The notes beneath the pieces were generated by a model. That model ran no database searches. It saw nothing but the letters and a program-made list of their open reading frames with translations, and was not told the DNA's origin. Of a stretch of 45,526 bases of DNA, positions 3,561-40,905 are shown piece by piece. The stretch's first letter is position 1, and every line of letters starts with the position of its first letter. The DNA lies in contig JANYKG010000069.1 of NCBI GenBank assembly GCA_025358205.1, positions 1 through 45,526 of the forward strand. The letters run 5' to 3'. Origin of the DNA: Armatimonadota bacterium. GTDB lineage: Bacteria > Armatimonadota > UBA5829 > DTJY01. The translations under genes and the position numbers were made by a program.

Positions 3561-3690
3561 ATAGGTGTTAGGTGTTTGGTGGTAGGTGGTAGGGCGGGAG
3601 ACGAACATCGAACTCCCAACGCCGAACTTCCAACCTCGAACAAGAGACCGGCAAACCTGATATCGCCTAACACCAATCACCTAACACCTT
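3561..3690. repeat. Composite short-tandem-repeat palindrome
   Basis: This intergenic stretch contains nothing gene-like. AGGTGTTAGGTG (3563-3574) is exactly complementary to CACCTAACACCT (3678-3689). Further GGTGGTAGGTGGTAGG words follow the left arm. The middle holds alternating GAAC and CCAAC words (3613-3640). Similar words recur at 35629-35739 inside a gene. Confidence 0.8.
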
Positions 3691-10967: not shown

Positions 10968-11666
10968 GTGGGCAAGCTCTCAAGGAAGAAGATGATGACG
11001 GTCGTCAAGGTGATCCTGGTGGTATTCGCAATATGGGCGGTCCCTACTGCCTACAACGAGATCGGCATGTACCGAACGGATAAGTATTGGGCCTCATGGG
11101 AGCGCACCTTCAAGGCCGAGATGGAGAACAAGTGGCACATGAGCTTCCGCGACATTAAGGATTGGTCCGGTGACGTGATCGGCACAAAGGGCGATAACCA
11201 TGATGCGAGGTCGGGGTTGGATATTGTATGCGATATCCGCGTGGAGATAGGCAAGTACGGCCCGACAATGGAGCGTGTTGTGATCGTCGCTCGTGGGATG
11301 GATGAGAAGACGCTCGACAAGGCCGCCCGCGACCTGTTCAAGGAGGCGGCGAATGCACCGCTGGCAATCCCGGACTATGACCGAGCGAGGGTCGACGAAT
11401 GGATTCAGTCTCAACTCGAGGGCCCGGGTTCCGACAAGACGACGATAGGCGATACAGGCGTGTTTGTGTGGCTGGGGCGCGCGCAGAAGATACTGGCGAT
11501 CGGCTATGCAGACGACATTGCGCAGACGGCTAGGGGACTGAGGAGTGAGAAGGCGGTTCCGTCCTCTCCGCGTCTCCCATCCCCGAGTGCCTCCTCGCCG
11601 TGCCTCCGTGTTGAGGGTTCCCAAAGAACAAAGAGCCCGGGATTCCTCCCAGGCCCTTCTGACTAA
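10968..11666 (+). CDS. Membrane-anchored protein of unknown function with repeat-derived C-terminus
   Basis: 232 residues from a GTG (10968), with GGAGG six bases upstream. After MGKLSRKKM an N-terminal membrane segment (~residues 9-27, MMTVVKVILVVFAIWAVPTAY) anchors a soluble domain of ~165 residues outside the membrane. No family is recognised. From ~residue 190 the composition changes to Ser/Pro-rich SSPRLPSPSASSPCLRV. This part is encoded by a dispersed-repeat-like block (11541-11666), so the original stop has probably been replaced and the native protein was about 190 residues. The gene is divergent from the oxidoreductase operon. Confidence 0.65.
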   Translation: MGKLSRKKMMTVVKVILVVFAIWAVPTAYNEIGMYRTDKYWASWERTFKAEMENKWHMSFRDIKDWSGDVIGTKGDNHDARSGLDIVCDIRVEIGKYGPTMERVVIVARGMDEKTLDKAARDLFKEAANAPLAIPDYDRARVDEWIQSQLEGPGSDKTTIGDTGVFVWLGRAQKILAIGYADDIAQTARGLRSEKAVPSSPRLPSPSASSPCLRVEGSQRTKSPGFLPGPSD

Positions 11667-11697
11667 CTGATCTACTGACCAGCTGACCTACTGCTAT
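11541..11697. repeat. Dispersed-repeat block at a gene 3' end
   Basis: CTCC/GCCTCC words (11570-11610) are followed by a terminator-like imperfect hairpin AGAGCCCGGGA/TCCCAGGCCCT (~11631-11660), then CTGAC/CTACTG words (actgatctactgaccagctg and similar, 11661-11693). These read through the end of the upstream gene and abut the chimeric relic. Confidence 0.55.
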
Positions 11698-24641: not shown

Positions 24642-24665
24642 ATGAGTAAGAGTATGAATAAGAGC
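24642..24665. repeat. AGTAAGAGTA-type repeat at a gene start
   Basis: Degenerate GAGTAAGAGTATGAATAAGAG words overlap the first codons (MSKSMNKS) of the ceramidase-like gene. They recall the CGAGTA repeat at 15781-15798. Confidence 0.5.
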
Positions 24666-25880
24666 GGGAGCGCATATACCGTCGGCTACTGGAAAACTGA
24701 TATTACACCGCCTATCGGAATGCCGTTTCTGGGCTGGCGGCCAAGGCATCAACCGATCAGGGGAATCCACGATTCGCTGTTTGCGCGTGCGGCGTACATC
24801 AAGGCGCGGGGCGAAAGGGTCATCATCATCAGCGCGGATACTCTCGGCTTTGCGGGCGGTCTCCTGGGTCCGGGGCGGAGCTTCATCGGCGAGGTGAAGG
24901 CCGAGATCGAGCGTATAACCGGCATCCCCGGTACCCACATTCTCATCGCAAGCAACCACATTCACTCCTCCGCTGAGACGCTCGGCTTCCGTCCGCTCAC
25001 CGCCGAATACCCCGAGGCGCTCACCTGGCTGGAAGGTCTGCAGAGGTCGCTGGTGGAGTGTGCGGTCAATGCGTGCGGGGCGACCTTCGAGGCCGGTCTC
25101 AAGATCAACAACGGCTCTGTCTCCGGCATCGCGAAGAACAGGCGAGGGGATGACTGCCTGGATCAGGAGGTCATTGCACTCACGTTCGAGTCTGATCGCG
25201 GGCCGGAGCTTGTGATGGTCAACTACGCCTGCCATCCGGTGATTCTCCAGGTCTGGGACCAGGTCTCGGCGGACTACGTGGGCGCGGTGTGCAGGCACGT
25301 GGAGGAGGGCATCGGCGCGAATTGCATGTTCCTCATGGGCGCGTGCGGCGATATCAACCCGATCAAGGCGGACTCCAGGGATTACGCCGATTCCGATGCC
25401 ATGGGGCGCGTGATTGCGGACAAGGTCCTCAGGCTGGTGGCTGATGACCACCCCGCCGAGCCTGCCGTCGTGAGAGCCGCATCCACCTTTGTGGACTTCC
25501 CGTCTCGCTCGTTGCCGTCCGTGGACGAACTCCCGCCGGATGGAGACAATGCGGAGGCGCTGGTCAGAATCGCTGAGGGAACCGGGCCGTTCACCGGGGA
25601 GGTTCAGGCGATCAGGGTGGGGGACGCGGTTCTCGTCGGCATGCCCGGCGAGGTATTCTGCGCGACCGGCATGGCGATCAAGGAGATATGCAAGCCGCTC
25701 ACGGGCATCCCGGTCGGCTATGCAAACGGCTATCTCGGATACTTCATTCCGCCGGACGCCTGGCAGAAGGATACCTACGAAACCCGCCTCGGCCCCTGGT
25801 CAAAGGTAGGAGCCGAAGCGGTAGAAATGCTGCTGGATACAGTGCGACAATTCGCATGCGCCATGATGAGTGATGAGTGA
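24642..25880 (+). CDS. Neutral/alkaline ceramidase-like hydrolase
   Basis: 412 residues. ATG 24642 or 24654 may be the start; neither has a strong ribosome site. The protein matches the N-terminal metallo-domain of neutral/alkaline non-lysosomal ceramidases (PF04734): WKTDITPPIGMPFLGW, ISADTLGF, SNHIHSSAETLG (zinc His residues), MVNYACHPVIL (His) and FLMGACGDINP. The C-terminal Ig-like half of true ceramidases is missing, and no signal peptide is seen. In polysaccharide-degrading bacteria such short forms are common and may hydrolyse other amides or esters. Both ends lie in repeat words: AGTAAGAGTA at the start and TGATGAG repeats giving the last codons (MMSDE). Confidence 0.8.
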   Translation: MSKSMNKSGSAYTVGYWKTDITPPIGMPFLGWRPRHQPIRGIHDSLFARAAYIKARGERVIIISADTLGFAGGLLGPGRSFIGEVKAEIERITGIPGTHILIASNHIHSSAETLGFRPLTAEYPEALTWLEGLQRSLVECAVNACGATFEAGLKINNGSVSGIAKNRRGDDCLDQEVIALTFESDRGPELVMVNYACHPVILQVWDQVSADYVGAVCRHVEEGIGANCMFLMGACGDINPIKADSRDYADSDAMGRVIADKVLRLVADDHPAEPAVVRAASTFVDFPSRSLPSVDELPPDGDNAEALVRIAEGTGPFTGEVQAIRVGDAVLVGMPGEVFCATGMAIKEICKPLTGIPVGYANGYLGYFIPPDAWQKDTYETRLGPWSKVGAEAVEMLLDTVRQFACAMMSDE

Positions 25881-25933
25881 TACGTGAACTATGCTCGACG
25901 ATTCCTCGTCGTCCCCATCAGCCATCAGCCATT
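25863..25933. repeat. TGATGAG and CATCAGC tandem words
   Basis: atgatgagtgatgagtgat (25863-25881) supplies the last codons and the stop of the ceramidase-like gene. catcagccatcagccatt (25916-25933) ends four bases before the stop of the convergent alpha-galactosidase gene. Complementary TCACTCA words are inside the gene at 35285-35310. Confidence 0.7.
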
Positions 25934-25936
25934 CCC

Positions 25937-27919
25937 TCATTTTTCAGGAGTGCCGATTTTCACCATGCATGCTGCGTGCGGGAGAACCTCTGCCGTGAAC
26001 GAATCAGTGCGAACCCCCAGGTCCTTCTTGCGCCACAGATCGCGGACCGGCTGCGGGCCACTGATACCCAAGTCCGACCACTGAATCGTGAGCTTGCTCT
26101 TCTCGCGCCCAAGGTTGAACAGACCTACCGCCATCGTTCCGTCTGCAAGAGGACGTCCCCAGATCTCCACGCCGTTTGCCTGCTTGATTCGTCCGGCCGC
26201 CTTGCCCAGGGTGTCCTGGTCAATAGCAAGCACCTCGTCGTTCGTGAGCACGTCGTAGGTGAACTCGTCCATCTGCAGAATGTCACCGCCGATCAGGAGC
26301 GGTGCGGCGAGCAGACTCCACAGCGTCATCTGCGAAATCTGCTCGTTCTGAGAGAGTCGCGACGGACGAAGGTTGCCGAATCCCACCTTGCCGATGCAGA
26401 GCATATCCGGATCGTTCCAGTGCCCCGGCCCGGCATACTTTTCGCGCCCGGCGTTGCTGAATCCGATCTTGGCCATGTTGCCCCAACTGTCCAGCAGGTC
26501 GCCGGTTGTCCGCCACATGTTCGCGCCGACCAGTTCGCCCCATTCCCACACGTTGCCCATACCGTACTGACACAGGCTGTAGACGATGTCCCTGTCCGCC
26601 GTGTCCAGCGCGGTTCTCATTATCGCGTAAGGCTTCTGCAACTCGGTGAGGCTGTGGCCCTTCGCAATTCCGCCGTAGGTACACCAGTCGTGTTTGAAGA
26701 AATCCACGCCCCACTTGGCGTATGTCTGTGCGTCCTGAACCTCGTGCTGGTAAGTACCCTCAAATCTCGCACAGGTCTGGGGTCCGGGGGATGAGTAGAG
26801 ACCGAACTTCAGCCCTCTGTTGTGGATGTAGTCCGCCATCGCCTTCATGTCCGGGAACCGCTCGTTGGTCTGAATCTCGCCGTTTGCGTCTCGACCCGCT
26901 TCCCAGCAGTCGTCTATGTTCACGTACTGGTAGCCGTGACCTGCCAGCCCGGTCTTCACCATCACGTCGGCGTGCTTCATCATTATGTCGGCGGTTATCT
27001 GGCGGCCCCAGCAGTACCATGAGTTCCACCCCATGGGCGGAGTGAGCGCGAGTTTCCGTGTACCGCCGACGATAGTGAGGGTGCCGCTCGCGGAGCGCTT
27101 GGCGTCTCTAACCGTCAGCTTCACATCCCACTTGCCTGCTTCCTTGAGCGCACCGGATATCACTCCAGTCGCGGAATTCAGTTCCAGCCCTGCCGGGAGT
27201 CCCTTCGCTGAGTAGGTCAGAACGCCGCTGCCGGTTGCGGGTATGAGGAACAGGAAAGGCCGCCCGGGGGTTGCTCCGGTGATGCGCGGGCTGTTGATCG
27301 CCAGCCTGTTTTTGTCGGTATGCGCTATCTGCATCGGGGTCATGGCGAACTGGTTGACCGTCTGCGGGTACTGCGCCTTATCCGTGCCTGGCGATACGTA
27401 GAAGCGCGCATCCGCCCAGTCGGCGTGATCGTTGTTGATATTGTCCCCGGCATCCTCGATACTGAGAACCATCGTCTTCGCGCCGTCGAGCTTAGCGCCG
27501 ATCAGAACCGGCTTATCGCCGCCCTTCATGACCGCTGTTCTGGCGGCCATCTTGCCGTCAACCGAGATGTTGAAGACTACCGATCCCTGGCCTGCTGTTT
27601 CGTCGTCCACGCCCACCATAGCCGTGAAGAGCTTCGCGTTGCCCTTGAGGTCAATGGTCACCTCACTGGTCGCGTGCGAGCCGATGCCGTGCTCGTACAC
27701 GGTCCCGCCTAGTGTAAGCGGCTTGCCGATAACAGACTTTCCGACTTGCGGGGTGCCGTAGTCCTGGGTCATCTTGATCAGATCCAGGCTCTCGAGTGGG
27801 ACGATTGTCCATGAAGGCTCCGGCGTCGGCAGCTCGGGTATGAACGCGGTTATGTTTGCGCCTGCCGGAATTTGCAGTATGCACAGTAACATCATCATGC
27901 AGATAAGTCGTCTCATCAC
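25937..27919 (-). CDS. Secreted alpha-galactosidase (GH27) with NPCBM domain
   Basis: 660 residues from GTG 27919 (an ATG follows at the next codon), with AGAGGATG 7-10 bases upstream. MMRRLICMMMLLCILQIPAGA is a signal peptide. Residues ~35-175 form an NPCBM lectin-like domain (YEHGIGSHATSEVTIDL, HADWADARFYV). Residues ~215-285 form a small Ig-like/He_PIG module (GLPAGLELNSATGVISG). The GH27 barrel follows at ~295-560: TPPMGWNSWYCWG, YVNIDDCW, the nucleophile Asp in FFKHDWC (~404) and the acid/base Asp in GHWNDPDML (~501). A C-terminal beta-domain completes it. It would remove terminal alpha-galactose outside the cytoplasm. It is divergent from the GH2 gene, 111 bases apart, so possibly co-regulated. 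Confidence 0.93.
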   Translation of the reverse strand: MMRRLICMMMLLCILQIPAGANITAFIPELPTPEPSWTIVPLESLDLIKMTQDYGTPQVGKSVIGKPLTLGGTVYEHGIGSHATSEVTIDLKGNAKLFTAMVGVDDETAGQGSVVFNISVDGKMAARTAVMKGGDKPVLIGAKLDGAKTMVLSIEDAGDNINNDHADWADARFYVSPGTDKAQYPQTVNQFAMTPMQIAHTDKNRLAINSPRITGATPGRPFLFLIPATGSGVLTYSAKGLPAGLELNSATGVISGALKEAGKWDVKLTVRDAKRSASGTLTIVGGTRKLALTPPMGWNSWYCWGRQITADIMMKHADVMVKTGLAGHGYQYVNIDDCWEAGRDANGEIQTNERFPDMKAMADYIHNRGLKFGLYSSPGPQTCARFEGTYQHEVQDAQTYAKWGVDFFKHDWCTYGGIAKGHSLTELQKPYAIMRTALDTADRDIVYSLCQYGMGNVWEWGELVGANMWRTTGDLLDSWGNMAKIGFSNAGREKYAGPGHWNDPDMLCIGKVGFGNLRPSRLSQNEQISQMTLWSLLAAPLLIGGDILQMDEFTYDVLTNDEVLAIDQDTLGKAAGRIKQANGVEIWGRPLADGTMAVGLFNLGREKSKLTIQWSDLGISGPQPVRDLWRKKDLGVRTDSFTAEVLPHAACMVKIGTPEK

Positions 27920-31543: not shown

Positions 31544-31634
31544 GTCGGTTTTTGGGTGCGGGTGTCGGGTCAGACCAGCCATTTGTCGTGGATCATTCTC
31601 TGTCCAGACACCCGAAACCTGAAACCTGGCACCC
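31544..31634. repeat. Nested GGGTGTCGGG-type palindrome
   Basis: CGGGTGTC (31559-31566) pairs with GACACCCG (31607-31614), and GGGTGC (31554-31559) with GCACCC (31629-31634). GAAACCT is duplicated (31614-31627). It lies between the convergent GH2 and sulfotransferase genes and ends two bases before the sulfotransferase stop. Confidence 0.7.
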
Positions 31635-31635
31635 G

Positions 31636-32436
31636 TCACCACGTGTCATTCGCGACGTAGCCATACTCGATCAGCATGTCGCCGGCGATTCTCTTGACCA
31701 GGTCTTTCTCGTCCTCGGTCAGGCTCTTCCACCGGCCTCTGCCGTCGAAAAGCGGCTGGTTCACCTGCCAGTTGCGGTACTGCTCGTGGTTGGCTCCAAC
31801 GGGGCTGGTCGGACGTTTCATGCTTCGGGGGTAAAGCGACTTGTGGACCTTGTGGTATTCCCGCAGCCCCTCCTCAAACTCCTCGCTCAGGAAACTCAAC
31901 GCGGTCGAGATTGTCGCCTCGAAGCTCTCGATCATGTCCTCGTATCGCATCACGTGAACACTTGGGTGGTTCCAGTAGGACTGTCCGGCGCGGTTGTCCT
32001 CCACCCACCGGTTGATGCCTTCTCTGAGGTCACCGGTCCGCGACTGGATGGACCATGCGACATCGCGGCCGTCCCTGATCAGAATCATTATCTTGGCATC
32101 CGGGCGCATCGTTAGCAGCTTGTCAATGCAGTGGATGTGCCGAGGGGTCTTCTCCGCCCAACGGGGTTTGCCTTCCGCGATCGCCCATACGTCGAACGAT
32201 CTCAGCAAGGAGCCGGGGTTCTCGCTGAAGCAGAACTTGGTTTCATAGGGGACAGCCGCAATCCTGGAGTGAGCGTCAAGTACTCTTAGCAGCAGCGAGG
32301 TTCCGCTGTGTCCGCAGCCCACTAAGAAGATAGGCGGACCGGTTGCAGCACACCCTTTCATATACCGGTTGACCAGGTATCTGGGCCAGAGTGCGGCGCG
32401 TAAAGCCCTTTTGCGTATTGCGGATTGGATATGCAT
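31636..32436 (-). CDS. Sulfotransferase family protein
   Basis: 266 residues from ATG 32436, with a weak CGGAAAG ribosome site. The PAPS 5'-phosphosulfate loop is GCGHSGTSLLLRVLDAH (residues ~40-56) and the 3'-phosphate region is ILIRDGRDVAWS. HPSVHVMRYEDMI matches the conserved later part. It would move sulfate from PAPS to a hydroxyl group, probably on a polysaccharide, glycolipid or protein tyrosine; the acceptor is unknown. It has no signal peptide and a Arg/Lys-rich N-terminus. The gene has a strong separate promoter. No PAPS-synthesis genes are nearby, although cysteine synthase lies 8 kb away. Confidence 0.87.
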   Translation of the reverse strand: MHIQSAIRKRALRAALWPRYLVNRYMKGCAATGPPIFLVGCGHSGTSLLLRVLDAHSRIAAVPYETKFCFSENPGSLLRSFDVWAIAEGKPRWAEKTPRHIHCIDKLLTMRPDAKIMILIRDGRDVAWSIQSRTGDLREGINRWVEDNRAGQSYWNHPSVHVMRYEDMIESFEATISTALSFLSEEFEEGLREYHKVHKSLYPRSMKRPTSPVGANHEQYRNWQVNQPLFDGRGRWKSLTEDEKDLVKRIAGDMLIEYGYVANDTW

Positions 32437-33561: not shown

Positions 33562-36264
33562 ATGTGTCTTGACATCAAGTTGGCTGTGGCGATGTGCGTT
33601 GTGCTCCTGACAGGACTGGGTGATAAAGCTTTCGGGGCGAAGCTGTCGAATGGCTTCTTCAGCCTTGATATCAGCGGCACAGGCATCACCCGCATGCAGG
33701 TTGACCCGCTGGGCAAGAACCCGCGGAGTATGAGCTTTGCCAAGGACCTCCGCTCGGAGTTCTTCCGCGAAACCCCGGCTACGAAGGTCACCGTCAGCGG
33801 TCACAAGGCGACGATATCGAATCTGGAGATAGCGGAATACCGGGGCCTCGCCACCAGCGTCGGCACGGACAATGCGATCAAGCTGGAGCAGGGCCACACC
33901 CTGGGCCAGACCTTCCGCCTGCCTGCGGGTGCACAGCTTTCCTTCGTGGAGGTCAGGCTGCCGACCTGGAACTCCAACACCCACGGCTGCACCCTTAGCC
34001 TATACCGTGACGGCAAGCTTGTGGCGTCGAAGAAGCTCGCGAACGTCCCCGACAACTCCTGGCAGCAGATCGCGCCGGACAGCCCGCAGTTCGAGGGTCT
34101 GTACACCGTGGAGATCTCCGATCCCAACGGCGACATCGGCTGGTGGACCAGCAAGACGGGTGTGGACTCGATCGGCGAGGCGCTGGTGGACGGCAAACCC
34201 GTTGACGGTGATCGCGCGCTTCAGGTTCACTCCAACCAGACTGTCGGCAAGGGGAGCCTGATCTACACGCTGGACGGGAGCAGTCTCCACATGGACGCGG
34301 AGTTTACGCCGACCGCCGACATGCAGTACAAGACCTTCCCCTGGCGCTGGAAAACTACCTGGACTAAGGACGGCTACGACTGCACGCCTAAGTCCGGCAC
34401 GGTCTTCAGCCGCTTCTTCACGGACAACCTGCGCTACCTGAACATCCAGTGGTTCAAGCGGCGCGACACGGGCGCGTATGCGTTCGACGGCTGCAAGTGG
34501 ATCGAGATGGACGGCACGAAAGACGCCGACTTGCGCGTGGAAGGCGACAGAATGCACCTGCACTGGGAACTCAAGCCGGACGAGATGCACCTGCGGCTGG
34601 ATACTCCGCTGGAGCATGTCGGTGATGTAGTCAAGTCACGTTTGACCATCGTGGCTCGGAAGCGCGATGATACCGTTCCGCCGGAGTACCCACGGTTCAC
34701 ATGCTCCGACAAGGCAGTCGAGAAAGACCTGAACACCTTCTGGTGGGAGCGGGGATTCTCGTACCCCTACCCGCCGAATACGTCCGTCGAGTGGACGGAG
34801 TGGACCGCGCTCACTCGTGCGTGGTTCGACGACTGCAGCCGTGACGCGCAGATCAAGATGCTGGACGACTATCCGATGACGGCGGAGGGATACGTCAACA
34901 CATACGGCGATATCGTCGGCTGGCCGCTGGTACCGAACCGCGACACGAGGCATTTCGACACCAATGCGCGGTTCATCCTGGCGTACTGGCGGAACTACCT
35001 CTGGACCGGCGACAAGCAGATTCTGATACGGAACGCGGACCGGCTCCGCAAGGCGATGAACTACCAGCTTGAGGTTCTCAAGGGCAAGGACGGACTGATC
35101 TGCACCCCGGATTTCAAGACCGGCCGCCACGAGGATCTGAGCGACAACTACTGGGACATCCTCCCTTTCGGCCACCTGGATGCGTTTGCCAACGCGGCGT
35201 ATTATGGATCGCTGAATGCGATGGCAGCCGTGGAAGAAGTTCTCGGCAAATCCGAAATCCGAAATCCGAAATCCGAAATTCCGGATCACTCATCACTCAT
35301 CACTCATCATCCGCCGTCCTTCTACCGTGATCTGGCCCATAAGTCCCACAAGGCCTACGATGCTACCTTCTGGCTCGAAGACAAGGGCCGGTATGCCGGG
35401 TGTGTGGACATTGACGGTGTGAAGCACGACTACGGTTTCACGTTCGTCAACCTGGAGGCGCTGTTCTACGGCCTCGGTGACGCGGAGAAGGCCAGGCGCA
35501 TCTACCACTGGATGGAAACCGAGCCGACCTCGTCCGGCAAGGCGGATACGTACACCAAGTGGATCTTCGCCCCGCGCGCCAACACCATCCACAACCCGGT
35601 GTGGCGAGACGGAAACGGGCCGATTCCGGTGAACAGTGAACAGTCAACCTCTTCGACAAGCTCAGGGCAGGCAGTGAACAGTGACCAGCAGTCCATTGAC
35701 CCTCCCCAGCCTACCACCTACCACCCAACACCTAACACCGGCCCCGTTCCGGGGCCCTGGTGGACCTACTGGTGGTGGGGAACCAAATACGGCGATCAGT
35801 GCCAGGACGGCGGCGCGATACTGTACACCTCGTTCCACGATCTCATGGACCGCGTGAAGTACCGAGGCGCGGACAACGCCTGGCAGCGGTTCACCGAGAT
35901 TCTCGGTCGCTATCGCATGCCGGACCGCCTGTGCGGTGGCTCGCCGCTCTACCGTGGCGAGATACCCCAGCAGGAGGGTGCCGGCGCAGTGGGCGTTGAC
36001 ATGCCGTTCCCCGAAAGCGGGCTGGTTCCGCTGTACTATCTCTACGGCGTTATCGGTCTTCACGCGTCGGACGATGGGTTGGTCGTCTCGCCTGCCTTGC
36101 CGAAATCGCTCTCGTACGCCGGTGTCCAGGGCGTCTACTGGCACGGTATGCGGCTGAACATCCGCATCACCCGCACGTCTGTCGAGCTAAGAGGCGCCGA
36201 CGGCGCGGGTAAACGCATAGACCGCAGGTTTCCCTACAAGCCAGGCCAAAGCATAACATTCTGA
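33562..36264 (+). CDS. Secreted six-hairpin glycosidase-like protein with two in-frame repeat insertions
   Basis: 900 residues; ATG 33562 with AGGAGG seven bases upstream. MCLDIKLAVAMCVVLLTGLGDKAFGA is a signal peptide. The N-terminal ~25-380 is beta-rich, with an exosortase-like lectin pattern around residues 105-200. The (alpha/alpha)6 catalytic-type part follows (~390-840: EWTEWTALTRAWFDDC, YGDIVGWPLVPN, ARFILAYWRNYLWTG, DNYWDILPFGHLDAFAN, WWTYWWWGTKYGDQCQDGG). Family number is uncertain; it recalls GH63/GH78/GH95-like clans. Two foreign low-complexity pieces interrupt it: ~562-583 (KSEIRNPKSEIPDHSSLITH) and ~689-726 (VNSEQSTSSTSSGQAVNSDQ, then a Pro/Thr-rich run). Both are made of tandem repeat words and keep the frame. 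Without the second, GNGPIPV would join PGPWW smoothly. Confidence 0.82.
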   Translation: MCLDIKLAVAMCVVLLTGLGDKAFGAKLSNGFFSLDISGTGITRMQVDPLGKNPRSMSFAKDLRSEFFRETPATKVTVSGHKATISNLEIAEYRGLATSVGTDNAIKLEQGHTLGQTFRLPAGAQLSFVEVRLPTWNSNTHGCTLSLYRDGKLVASKKLANVPDNSWQQIAPDSPQFEGLYTVEISDPNGDIGWWTSKTGVDSIGEALVDGKPVDGDRALQVHSNQTVGKGSLIYTLDGSSLHMDAEFTPTADMQYKTFPWRWKTTWTKDGYDCTPKSGTVFSRFFTDNLRYLNIQWFKRRDTGAYAFDGCKWIEMDGTKDADLRVEGDRMHLHWELKPDEMHLRLDTPLEHVGDVVKSRLTIVARKRDDTVPPEYPRFTCSDKAVEKDLNTFWWERGFSYPYPPNTSVEWTEWTALTRAWFDDCSRDAQIKMLDDYPMTAEGYVNTYGDIVGWPLVPNRDTRHFDTNARFILAYWRNYLWTGDKQILIRNADRLRKAMNYQLEVLKGKDGLICTPDFKTGRHEDLSDNYWDILPFGHLDAFANAAYYGSLNAMAAVEEVLGKSEIRNPKSEIPDHSSLITHHPPSFYRDLAHKSHKAYDATFWLEDKGRYAGCVDIDGVKHDYGFTFVNLEALFYGLGDAEKARRIYHWMETEPTSSGKADTYTKWIFAPRANTIHNPVWRDGNGPIPVNSEQSTSSTSSGQAVNSDQQSIDPPQPTTYHPTPNTGPVPGPWWTYWWWGTKYGDQCQDGGAILYTSFHDLMDRVKYRGADNAWQRFTEILGRYRMPDRLCGGSPLYRGEIPQQEGAGAVGVDMPFPESGLVPLYYLYGVIGLHASDDGLVVSPALPKSLSYAGVQGVYWHGMRLNIRITRTSVELRGADGAGKRIDRRFPYKPGQSITF
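35249..35312. repeat. In-gene tandem repeats ATCCGAA and TCACTCA
   Basis: Four copies of atccgaa (35250-35279) are followed directly by three to four copies of tcactca (35285-35310), inside the six-hairpin glycosidase gene and in frame. Confidence 0.92.
35629..35739. repeat. In-gene composite repeat block
   Basis: GTGAACA words (35629-35650 and 35674-35690) flank cttcgacaagctcagggcag (35651-35670). CCTACCACC and CCTAACACC words follow to 35739. The last type matches the palindrome arms at 3561-3690. The whole block is in frame. Confidence 0.9.
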
Positions 36265-38798: not shown

Positions 38799-38826
38799 AG
38801 TGCCATACCGTAATATGGAGGCCGCC

Positions 38827-40905
38827 GTGAAACTGCGCAGTATCCTCATTCTCGCACTCATACTCATCTCGTCATGTACCTACGCCGTTCAGCCGTTCAC
38901 CTTCATCCACATCACGGATGTCCACGTGAACTCAGCCGGTAAGAACACCGATCTGCTGAAGAACATCGCGGAAGAAGTGAAGGCGATGAACCCGAAACCT
39001 GAACTCGCAGTCTGTACCGGCGACCTAGTCGAGATCGGCTTCGAGTCGGAGTTTATGAACTACAAGACGGCGATGGAGACCTTCGGTATGCCGGTTTACA
39101 ACGTCCCCGGCAACCACGAGACCAAGTGGTCGGACTACGGCAAGCTTGGCCCAAAGCGGTTCCTCGGCCAGCCTCCGTACTACAGCTTCGATCACAAGGG
39201 TATCCACTTCGTCGCCATGGACAGCACCCTCTGGCTTGAGCACTACGGCATACTCGATCAGAGTGAACTCGCTTGGCTGAAGAAGGATTTGGACAAAGCA
39301 GGCAAGAGTACCCCTTCAGTCCTCTTCTATCACCACATGCCCGGGTTTATCCCGAACGAGGCGGAGCTTCTGCGCGTCATTCGCCCGTACAATGTGAAGC
39401 TGATTCTGGTCGGGCACGGTCACAACTTCAAGACCTGGAAGAAGAACGGCGTGCTTTTCCAGGAGGGCAAGGGCGTGATGAACAACCCCGGAGGCTACCG
39501 GATTCTTGAGGTCACCCCCACCGAGATCAAGAGCTTCACGGTCGTGACCGGCTCCGGTGAGAAAAAGCCCGACGGAGTCGTCTCCCTCGCGCCGATTCCT
39601 AATCCGGTGACGCTTGTTCGTCCGCGCACCGGCGAGAGCATCAACGGTCAGGTGAGCATCCAGGCCACCGTCAAGAGCCCCATGGAGAAGGTTGAGTACG
39701 CCATTGACGGCGACTACCAGCCGACCACTCCGGACGCCAAAGGCCTATGCGATGTGAAGGCGGACTTCTCCGGTTTCCCAGGCTGGCACACGGTTTCCAT
39801 CAAGGCGACCGACAAGGACGGCATGGAGTGGACGGACACCGCCTCAGTCCGCATTGGTCCCCCCGTCCCCCCATCTCCCCATCCCCCCGTCGCTTTCTTT
39901 CCCCAGGAGGTCTGGCATCGGAGTGTTTCAGGCGCGATCGAGCGCCCGATTCGCGCGGCGGGTGACAGGCTCTACCTCGGTACACTGGGCGGCGATATCT
40001 ACTGCCTGGACGCGAAGACCGGCAAGGATATCTGGAAGCACAACGTCGGCTCGGACAGCATCAGCCAGCCGGCGGTTGGTGACGGCTTCGTGTACGTCAG
40101 TTGCGTCGGCGGAGATATCATCGCGCTCTATAAGAAGACCGGCAAGCAGGCATGGAAGTACCACACCGACGGCCCGGTGGTCGGCTCGCCAACCCTCGGC
40201 GAGGGCAAGGTCTTCTGCGGTACCGGCGACCGCGGGTTCTGCGCCCTGGATGCGAAGACGGGTTCCTTGCTCTGGAGGTATCCTCTGAAGCACATGTGCC
40301 AGGTTGTCCCGCTCTACATGAACGGCGTGATCTACTTCGGCGCATGGGACGGCATGTTCCACGCGGTGGATGCGAAGACCGGCAAGGATGTGTGGACGTA
40401 CAAGACCGGCGACACGCTCTACTGGTCGCCCTCCAATTCCGATCCCGCCACGGACGGCAAGAGCATCGTCGTTACCGCCTACCAGGGCGAGGGGAACGTG
40501 CCGGACGTGTTCTGCTTCGACGTGAAGACCGGCGCGCTGGTGTGGAAACGAAAGAACCCCGGCGAGAAGGCGCTGGCCATCTTCAACAGCCCGTATGTCG
40601 TCGGCGACAAGTTCTTCCTCCCGGACACCGGCGGTGGGCTGTACTGCATGCAGATGGCGGACGGCAAGGAGGTCTGGCGCACGACAATCGGCCAGACGTG
40701 CTATGACAACTGGCCGGTGGTCTCAGGCGGCAAGCTGTACGTGTGCGGCCTGCGCGGGAACATCGTGCGCTTCGAGGCGGCAACCGGAAAGAAGGAGTGG
40801 ACGTACTCCACAGGCAACGGTTACTTGCTGGCCGCACCGACGGTCTGGAAGGATCTGGTGATCGTGCCGTCAATGGATGGAACGGTGACGGCGGTCCACC
40901 GGTAG
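38827..40905 (+). CDS. Exported metallophosphoesterase-PQQ beta-propeller protein (paralogue 1)
   Basis: 692 residues from GTG 38827, because GGAGG (38817-38821) is five bases upstream; the ATG at 38815 overlaps that site. The N-terminal signal ends LISSCTYA, giving either a lipobox (ISSC) or a Sec site. Residues ~25-240 form a calcineurin-like phosphoesterase with ITDVHV, CTGDLVE, VPGNHE, YHHMPG and GHGHNF, the full two-metal set. An Ig-like domain follows (~255-345). A propeller (~360-690) shows repeats with DAKTGKDIWK-type ends, usual for PQQ-like/WD quinoprotein folds. A C-rich block (39857-39904) inserted a Pro-rich linker, GPPVPPSPHPPVAFF. The gene ends inside the hairpin element at 40901. 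Periplasmic or lipid-anchored; substrate unknown. Confidence 0.88.
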   Translation: MKLRSILILALILISSCTYAVQPFTFIHITDVHVNSAGKNTDLLKNIAEEVKAMNPKPELAVCTGDLVEIGFESEFMNYKTAMETFGMPVYNVPGNHETKWSDYGKLGPKRFLGQPPYYSFDHKGIHFVAMDSTLWLEHYGILDQSELAWLKKDLDKAGKSTPSVLFYHHMPGFIPNEAELLRVIRPYNVKLILVGHGHNFKTWKKNGVLFQEGKGVMNNPGGYRILEVTPTEIKSFTVVTGSGEKKPDGVVSLAPIPNPVTLVRPRTGESINGQVSIQATVKSPMEKVEYAIDGDYQPTTPDAKGLCDVKADFSGFPGWHTVSIKATDKDGMEWTDTASVRIGPPVPPSPHPPVAFFPQEVWHRSVSGAIERPIRAAGDRLYLGTLGGDIYCLDAKTGKDIWKHNVGSDSISQPAVGDGFVYVSCVGGDIIALYKKTGKQAWKYHTDGPVVGSPTLGEGKVFCGTGDRGFCALDAKTGSLLWRYPLKHMCQVVPLYMNGVIYFGAWDGMFHAVDAKTGKDVWTYKTGDTLYWSPSNSDPATDGKSIVVTAYQGEGNVPDVFCFDVKTGALVWKRKNPGEKALAIFNSPYVVGDKFFLPDTGGGLYCMQMADGKEVWRTTIGQTCYDNWPVVSGGKLYVCGLRGNIVRFEAATGKKEWTYSTGNGYLLAAPTVWKDLVIVPSMDGTVTAVHR
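39857..39904. repeat. In-gene CCCCATCTCCCCATCCCCC block
   Basis: Degenerate C-rich tandem words lie in frame between the Ig-like domain and the propeller of paralogue 1. The matching place in paralogue 2 reads CVNAGAKEAW with no such block. Confidence 0.88.

Follow-up and report, generated by a model that had tools for sequence, protein, structure and literature searches.

How does a gene for a glycosidase-like enzyme come to contain two stretches of seven-base repeats and still keep its reading frame? The gene lies within a window of 45,526 nucleotides, which is the whole stretch of DNA that was analyzed. Its 900-aa protein gave weak matches to a GH116 catalytic region and a GH65 C-terminal domain, and no PDB relative was found by sequence. 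The gene and the parts of its two repeat blocks are as follows:

33562 to 36264, + strand: host gene, glycosidase-like, 900 aa, with a GH116-like catalytic region and a GH65 C-terminal-like domain
35248 to 35279, + strand: block 1a, (AAATCCG)4.6 array (TRF 100%), encoding KSEIRNPKSEI
35285 to 35309, + strand: block 1b, (ATCACTC)3.6 array (TRF 100%), encoding HSSLITHH
35629 to 35648, + strand: block 2a, GTGAACA heptads (TRF ×2.9), encoding VNSEQST
35651 to 35671, + strand: block 2b, the word CTTCGACAAGCTCAGGGCAGG flanked by heptad arrays, its first 15 bases present as five exact copies in the genome
35710 to 35739, + strand: block 2c, CCTACCA/CCTAACA heptads (TRF CCTAACA ×4.3), encoding PTTYHPTPNT

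A preliminary description had claimed two in-frame stretches of heptad words in this gene, and this was borne out, with TRF arrays at both places and a reading frame that is unbroken across 35248 to 35309 and 35629 to 35739. Block 1b is the C-arm of the commonest heptad family in the genome. In block 2b, CTTCGACAAGCTCAG is matched exactly at 35651 to 35665, while shuffles of the window give 0.10 matches with up to two mismatches. Neither block is palindromic. It had also been predicted that homologues would pass through both places without an insert. In an alignment of 12 homologues (one own-genome paralogue, G000:C64, with 11 proteins encoded in nine further genomes of this phylum), none has the peptides KSEIRNPKSEI or HSSLITHH, and block 2 is absent from all 11 homologues of other genomes, as predicted. 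The site of block 1 is a linker whose length differs among the 12 homologues, therefore the boundaries of this insert are inexact and its length is not exactly definable. At the block-2 site, the own-genome paralogue contains another repeat-derived stretch made of other words.

The blocks are not confined to this gene. When their words were counted genome-wide, as the preliminary description had proposed, exact copies numbered 35 for (ATCCGAA)2, 56 for (TCACTCA)2, seven for (CCTAACA)2, three for (GTGAACA)2 and five for CTTCGACAAGCTCAG, compared to 0 for each reversed-order control. The remaining four copies of CTTCGACAAGCTCAG are all intergenic (L105:3644, L119:232, L064:15873, and L118:4319), and the L105 copy is flanked by heptads of a single array. 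Arrays were further characterized in a sample of 1.18 Mb of the 4.08 Mb genome, taken mainly around word hits, of which 85.7% was predicted to be coding by a simple gene finder made for the analysis. This sample contained 129 exact period-7 runs vs 6 in a Markov simulation, and 155 scored segments of period 7 vs 25 of period 6 and 18 of period 8; because it is centered mostly on word hits, array densities and the period-7 excess overstate the genome average. Among 135 clusters, 72 are intergenic, 37 lie at gene edges and 26 within genes. Only 32 of 127 exact arrays fall in genes, far fewer than the coding share of 0.857 would give (p = 5e-53). The excess over other periods in this biased sample and the dispersed, mostly non-coding distribution are those of heptanucleotide tandem repeats (LSSR/STRR class), and several word families neighbor each other within one block. 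It is therefore probable that both blocks belong to a population of seven-base arrays, of several word families and dispersed over the whole genome, whose copies in genes are kept where the frame stays open. The observations taken together in this reading are dispersal, the period-7 excess, arm pairs, retained frames, a stop-codon bias and absence from most orthologues.

The window contains three further heptad clusters, none assigned to a strand:

3562 to 3689, unstranded: intergenic heptad cluster, outer GGTGTTA and TAACACC arms around AACATCG-type heptads
25864 to 25932, unstranded: gene-edge heptad cluster, the G-arm TGATGAGTGATGAGTGATACGTGA followed by CCATCAG heptads
31604 to 31640, unstranded: gene-edge heptad cluster of ACCTGAA type

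The claim that the words also lie between genes in the window is correct for the first cluster. It does not hold for 25864 to 25881, which is not simply intergenic because predicted gene 24642 to 25880 takes the TGA of this array as its end, the G-arm TGATGAGTGATGAGTGATACGTGA thereby containing the stop. No unusual folding was found at the cluster 25858 to 25960 (z −1.3). Separately, the window has a period-8 GTCCCCCC array at 39857 to 39891, within ORF 38800 to 40905, and a period-8/16 CCTACTGA array at 11655 to 11693, at the end of ORF 10968 to 11666.

A large part of the population is made of inverted arms. In the 1.18 Mb sample, the GTGATGA family, the commonest, gave 97 matches (up to five mismatches) to its 24-nt arm, in which the interruption is constant. 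These arms form 27 pairs with the G-arm preceding the C-arm and none in the opposite order, and ~40 arms have no partner. Most pairs (24 of 27) lie between co-directional genes; among the 26 measured, 23 start no more than 22 nt from the gene end and 14 provide its stop codon. The hairpins fold at −26 to −48 kcal/mol, and for the five that were refolded the z-scores lie between −5.3 and −7.2. The asymmetric internal loop of the hairpins is mostly oriented with transcription. Stability, orientation and position all favor the explanation that these are functional RNA hairpins at 3′ ends kept by selection, with the copies in genes as rare by-products. However, a conserved interior is absent, the unpaired arms and the many word families do not fit such a role, and most copies in genes consist of one arm, which makes this explanation a less probable one. 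Co-evolution of the two arms was rejected, with paired arms mismatching at 5.07 positions vs 4.28 when shuffled, an excess arising because one arm usually has GA and the other AC; greater complementarity of arms to their own partner than to arms of other pairs was not found. A long inverted repeat of heptad DNA with arms of ~70 nt (L120:50-120 and 509-579) lies near a contig end and could have been produced by the assembly.

Inverted arm pairs with variable spacers also resemble REPINs, and the genome has three Y1_Tnp genes, so the arms could in principle be mobilized by a Y1 transposase in a RAYT/REPIN or MITE system. Against this, no period-7 array lies within ~1.5 kb on either flank of the two Y1_Tnp genes that were inspected, and a different inverted repeat, AAATGGGGACAGACACAATT, is found near them. 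Moreover, G028 has 11 ATCCGAA pairs and no Y1_Tnp match, and the spacers of the 27 pairs differ in both length and sequence, with no conserved interior of the MITE kind found between the arms. A Y1 transposase flanked by the heptad repeat was not found at these two of the three genes, and as they adjoin another repeat the RAYT link was rejected; mobilization of this kind is very improbable. The inverted AAATGGGGACAGACACAATT repeats near Y1_Tnp genes (L139 and L146; G000:C117 and C128) constitute a separate REP-like family of the source genome. No mobility enzyme for the heptad arrays was found.

Other genes of the genome carry blocks of this kind. In-gene blocks interrupt M16 peptidase, sulfatase, SbcC/Rad50, AcrB-like and leucyl-tRNA synthetase genes, and are also present in an IspDF linker, ABC permease/binding-protein, trmFO and a GH38 gene with two. 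Both arms occur within a gene at L094 and L114 and, in other genomes, at L239 and L187. When leucyl-tRNA synthetase and TrmFO are aligned with their PDB relatives, gaps fall at the block positions. In the sister-genus sequences that were compared, the blocks are absent at the TrmFO, SbcC, M16, sulfatase and GH38 sites and at two sites of heparinase-like type. In the sister-genus genome G003, different repeat-like stretches occupy the TrmFO and M16 sites (L314, L323). The idea that an array caused the ispD-ispF fusion was rejected: the gene is fused in all 12 relatives searched, therefore the array altered the linker only. The M16-M16 junction is likewise joined in the four sister genomes.

The leucyl-tRNA synthetase gene has a different history. 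Its G003 counterpart has two CAACCAT units vs four in the source genome (a comparison between genera at one site), and native AIGS residues of the G002 and G004 enzymes persist between the arrays of the source genome. With the shorter CAACCAT seed shared by G003, the block is an old one that was extended where it stands, so that not every block calls for copying between sites. This site supports the alternative of pure in-place slippage, in which every array grew from a chance heptad at its own site with no seeding, and heptads are thought to be slippage-prone according to passages of PMC4679880 and PMC4692102 that cite Mrazek 2007. Yet this alternative is unlikely to account for all arrays: a handful of words are found at dozens of sites each while reversed controls give zero, the interrupted 24-nt arm is repeated throughout the sample with its pairs in a single order, and differing word families adjoin within one block.

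The placement of in-gene copies tracks stop-codon content, as expected if selection filters insertions. For words that are stop-free on both strands, 15 of 36 exact arrays lie in genes, compared to 10 of 64 for other words (Fisher p = 0.007), and for ATCCGAA 10 of 20 do so vs 4 of 47 for TCACTCA (p = 4e-4); these p-values are indicative because only commoner words were used and the word groups were formed after the counts had been seen. All four in-gene TCACTCA arrays are in the stop-free orientation. In the dispersed-population reading, arrays would arise or be copied at many sites, probably by short-range template copying and slippage rather than by a transposase, and would lengthen by steps of seven bases. 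They would persist mainly between genes, where many are arranged as inverted arm pairs that fold into hairpins. In genes, they would persist in linkers and loops, in orientations and frames that leave the reading frame open; such sites are presumably tolerant loops, and survival would be decided by selection and not by targeting.

The same words extend beyond this genome. Within the phylum, (ATCCGAA)2 has a patchy distribution, occurring in 21 of 291 genomes. The four other genomes of the family all lack it, while the TCACTCA word is found in one of these four. At least 118 stretches contain (ATCCGAA)3, and among the matches listed are Acidobacteria, Verrucomicrobia, Planctomycetes, Chloroflexi, Bacteroidetes, Deltaproteobacteria, candidate phyla, and others. 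In viral contigs, three window words gave 25, 30, and 15 stretches, and two ATCCGAA permutations gave 2 and 4. Ten ATCCGAA-bearing proteins were scanned and have the word in frame, with domains of a LolD-type ABC ATPase, PheT, HypF, CCA enzyme, ValRS, PolX-like polymerase, and others; the LolD case is less clear because a homologue retains some residues at the word position. The in-frame word of the CCA enzyme, where the alignment has a gap, comes from CP011210.1, which is titled a complete genome. This, the independent assemblies, and the differing block flanks in many genes make an assembly or sequencing artefact close to negligible, even though the source genome is a 200-contig draft.

Peptide KSEIRNP is carried by unrelated genes across many phyla. 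We tentatively raise the less probable possibility of a class of heptad-arm hairpin elements, with words common to many phyla, that spreads by copying and inserts in frame into one core gene after another, giving unrelated proteins the same peptides. Homologues from other lineages with the same peptides had been named as what would refute the proposed seeding; none of the peptides occur in homologues of the window gene, whereas the G003 leucyl-tRNA synthetase shares part of one block and KSEIRNP recurs in unrelated genes. The proposal of seeding anywhere followed by selection stands in part. It agrees with the homologues of the window gene that lack the peptides, the genome-wide words, the absence of most in-gene blocks from sister genera and the stop-codon pattern, and the old leucyl-tRNA synthetase block and the widely shared KSEIRNP count partly against it. 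Repeat DNA has reshaped conserved enzymes that are probably essential (tRNA synthetases, SbcC/Rad50, CCA enzyme) while keeping the frame. That distant phyla have a word in common raises the question whether it spread horizontally or whether they share a bias of replication toward certain heptads.

A search of literature text for six DNA words and six peptides gave no match in this context, the lone match being a yeast paper. The nearest description found is that of TAACTGA heptamer direct repeats in marine Beggiatoaceae, some Cyanobacteria and Bacteroidetes, for which mobility is suspected (MacGregor 2015, PMC4679880). Those are also dispersed arrays, mostly intergenic and patchy over phyla, some of which overlap stop codons, and stops limit their in-gene orientation. 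However, they consist of one word that usually lies immediately ahead of start codons, and their copies in genes are chiefly at the ends of the proteins, whereas here there are several words, often 3′ of genes and often in inverted arm pairs, with blocks within conserved enzymes. The GGGAATC and GGGGA(C/T)T heptamers of Xanthomonas and Nostoc (PMC4692102) similarly form genome-wide arrays over-represented in non-coding DNA, but are G-quadruplex-forming; the words here differ and often serve as complementary arms. REP/REPIN elements with RAYT transposases share the short inverted arms and spacers between genes, unlike which the arms here are heptad arrays and the genome's own Y1 transposases adjoin another repeat. 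For repeat DNA retained in frame, the nearest case is that of Rickettsia palindromic elements (reviewed in PMC10969869), which, like the heptad blocks, lie within unrelated coding genes. These elements are ~150 bp palindromic units with a conserved peptide, whereas the heptad blocks are arrays of varying composition, the two in the window gene are not palindromic, and most others in genes hold a single arm.
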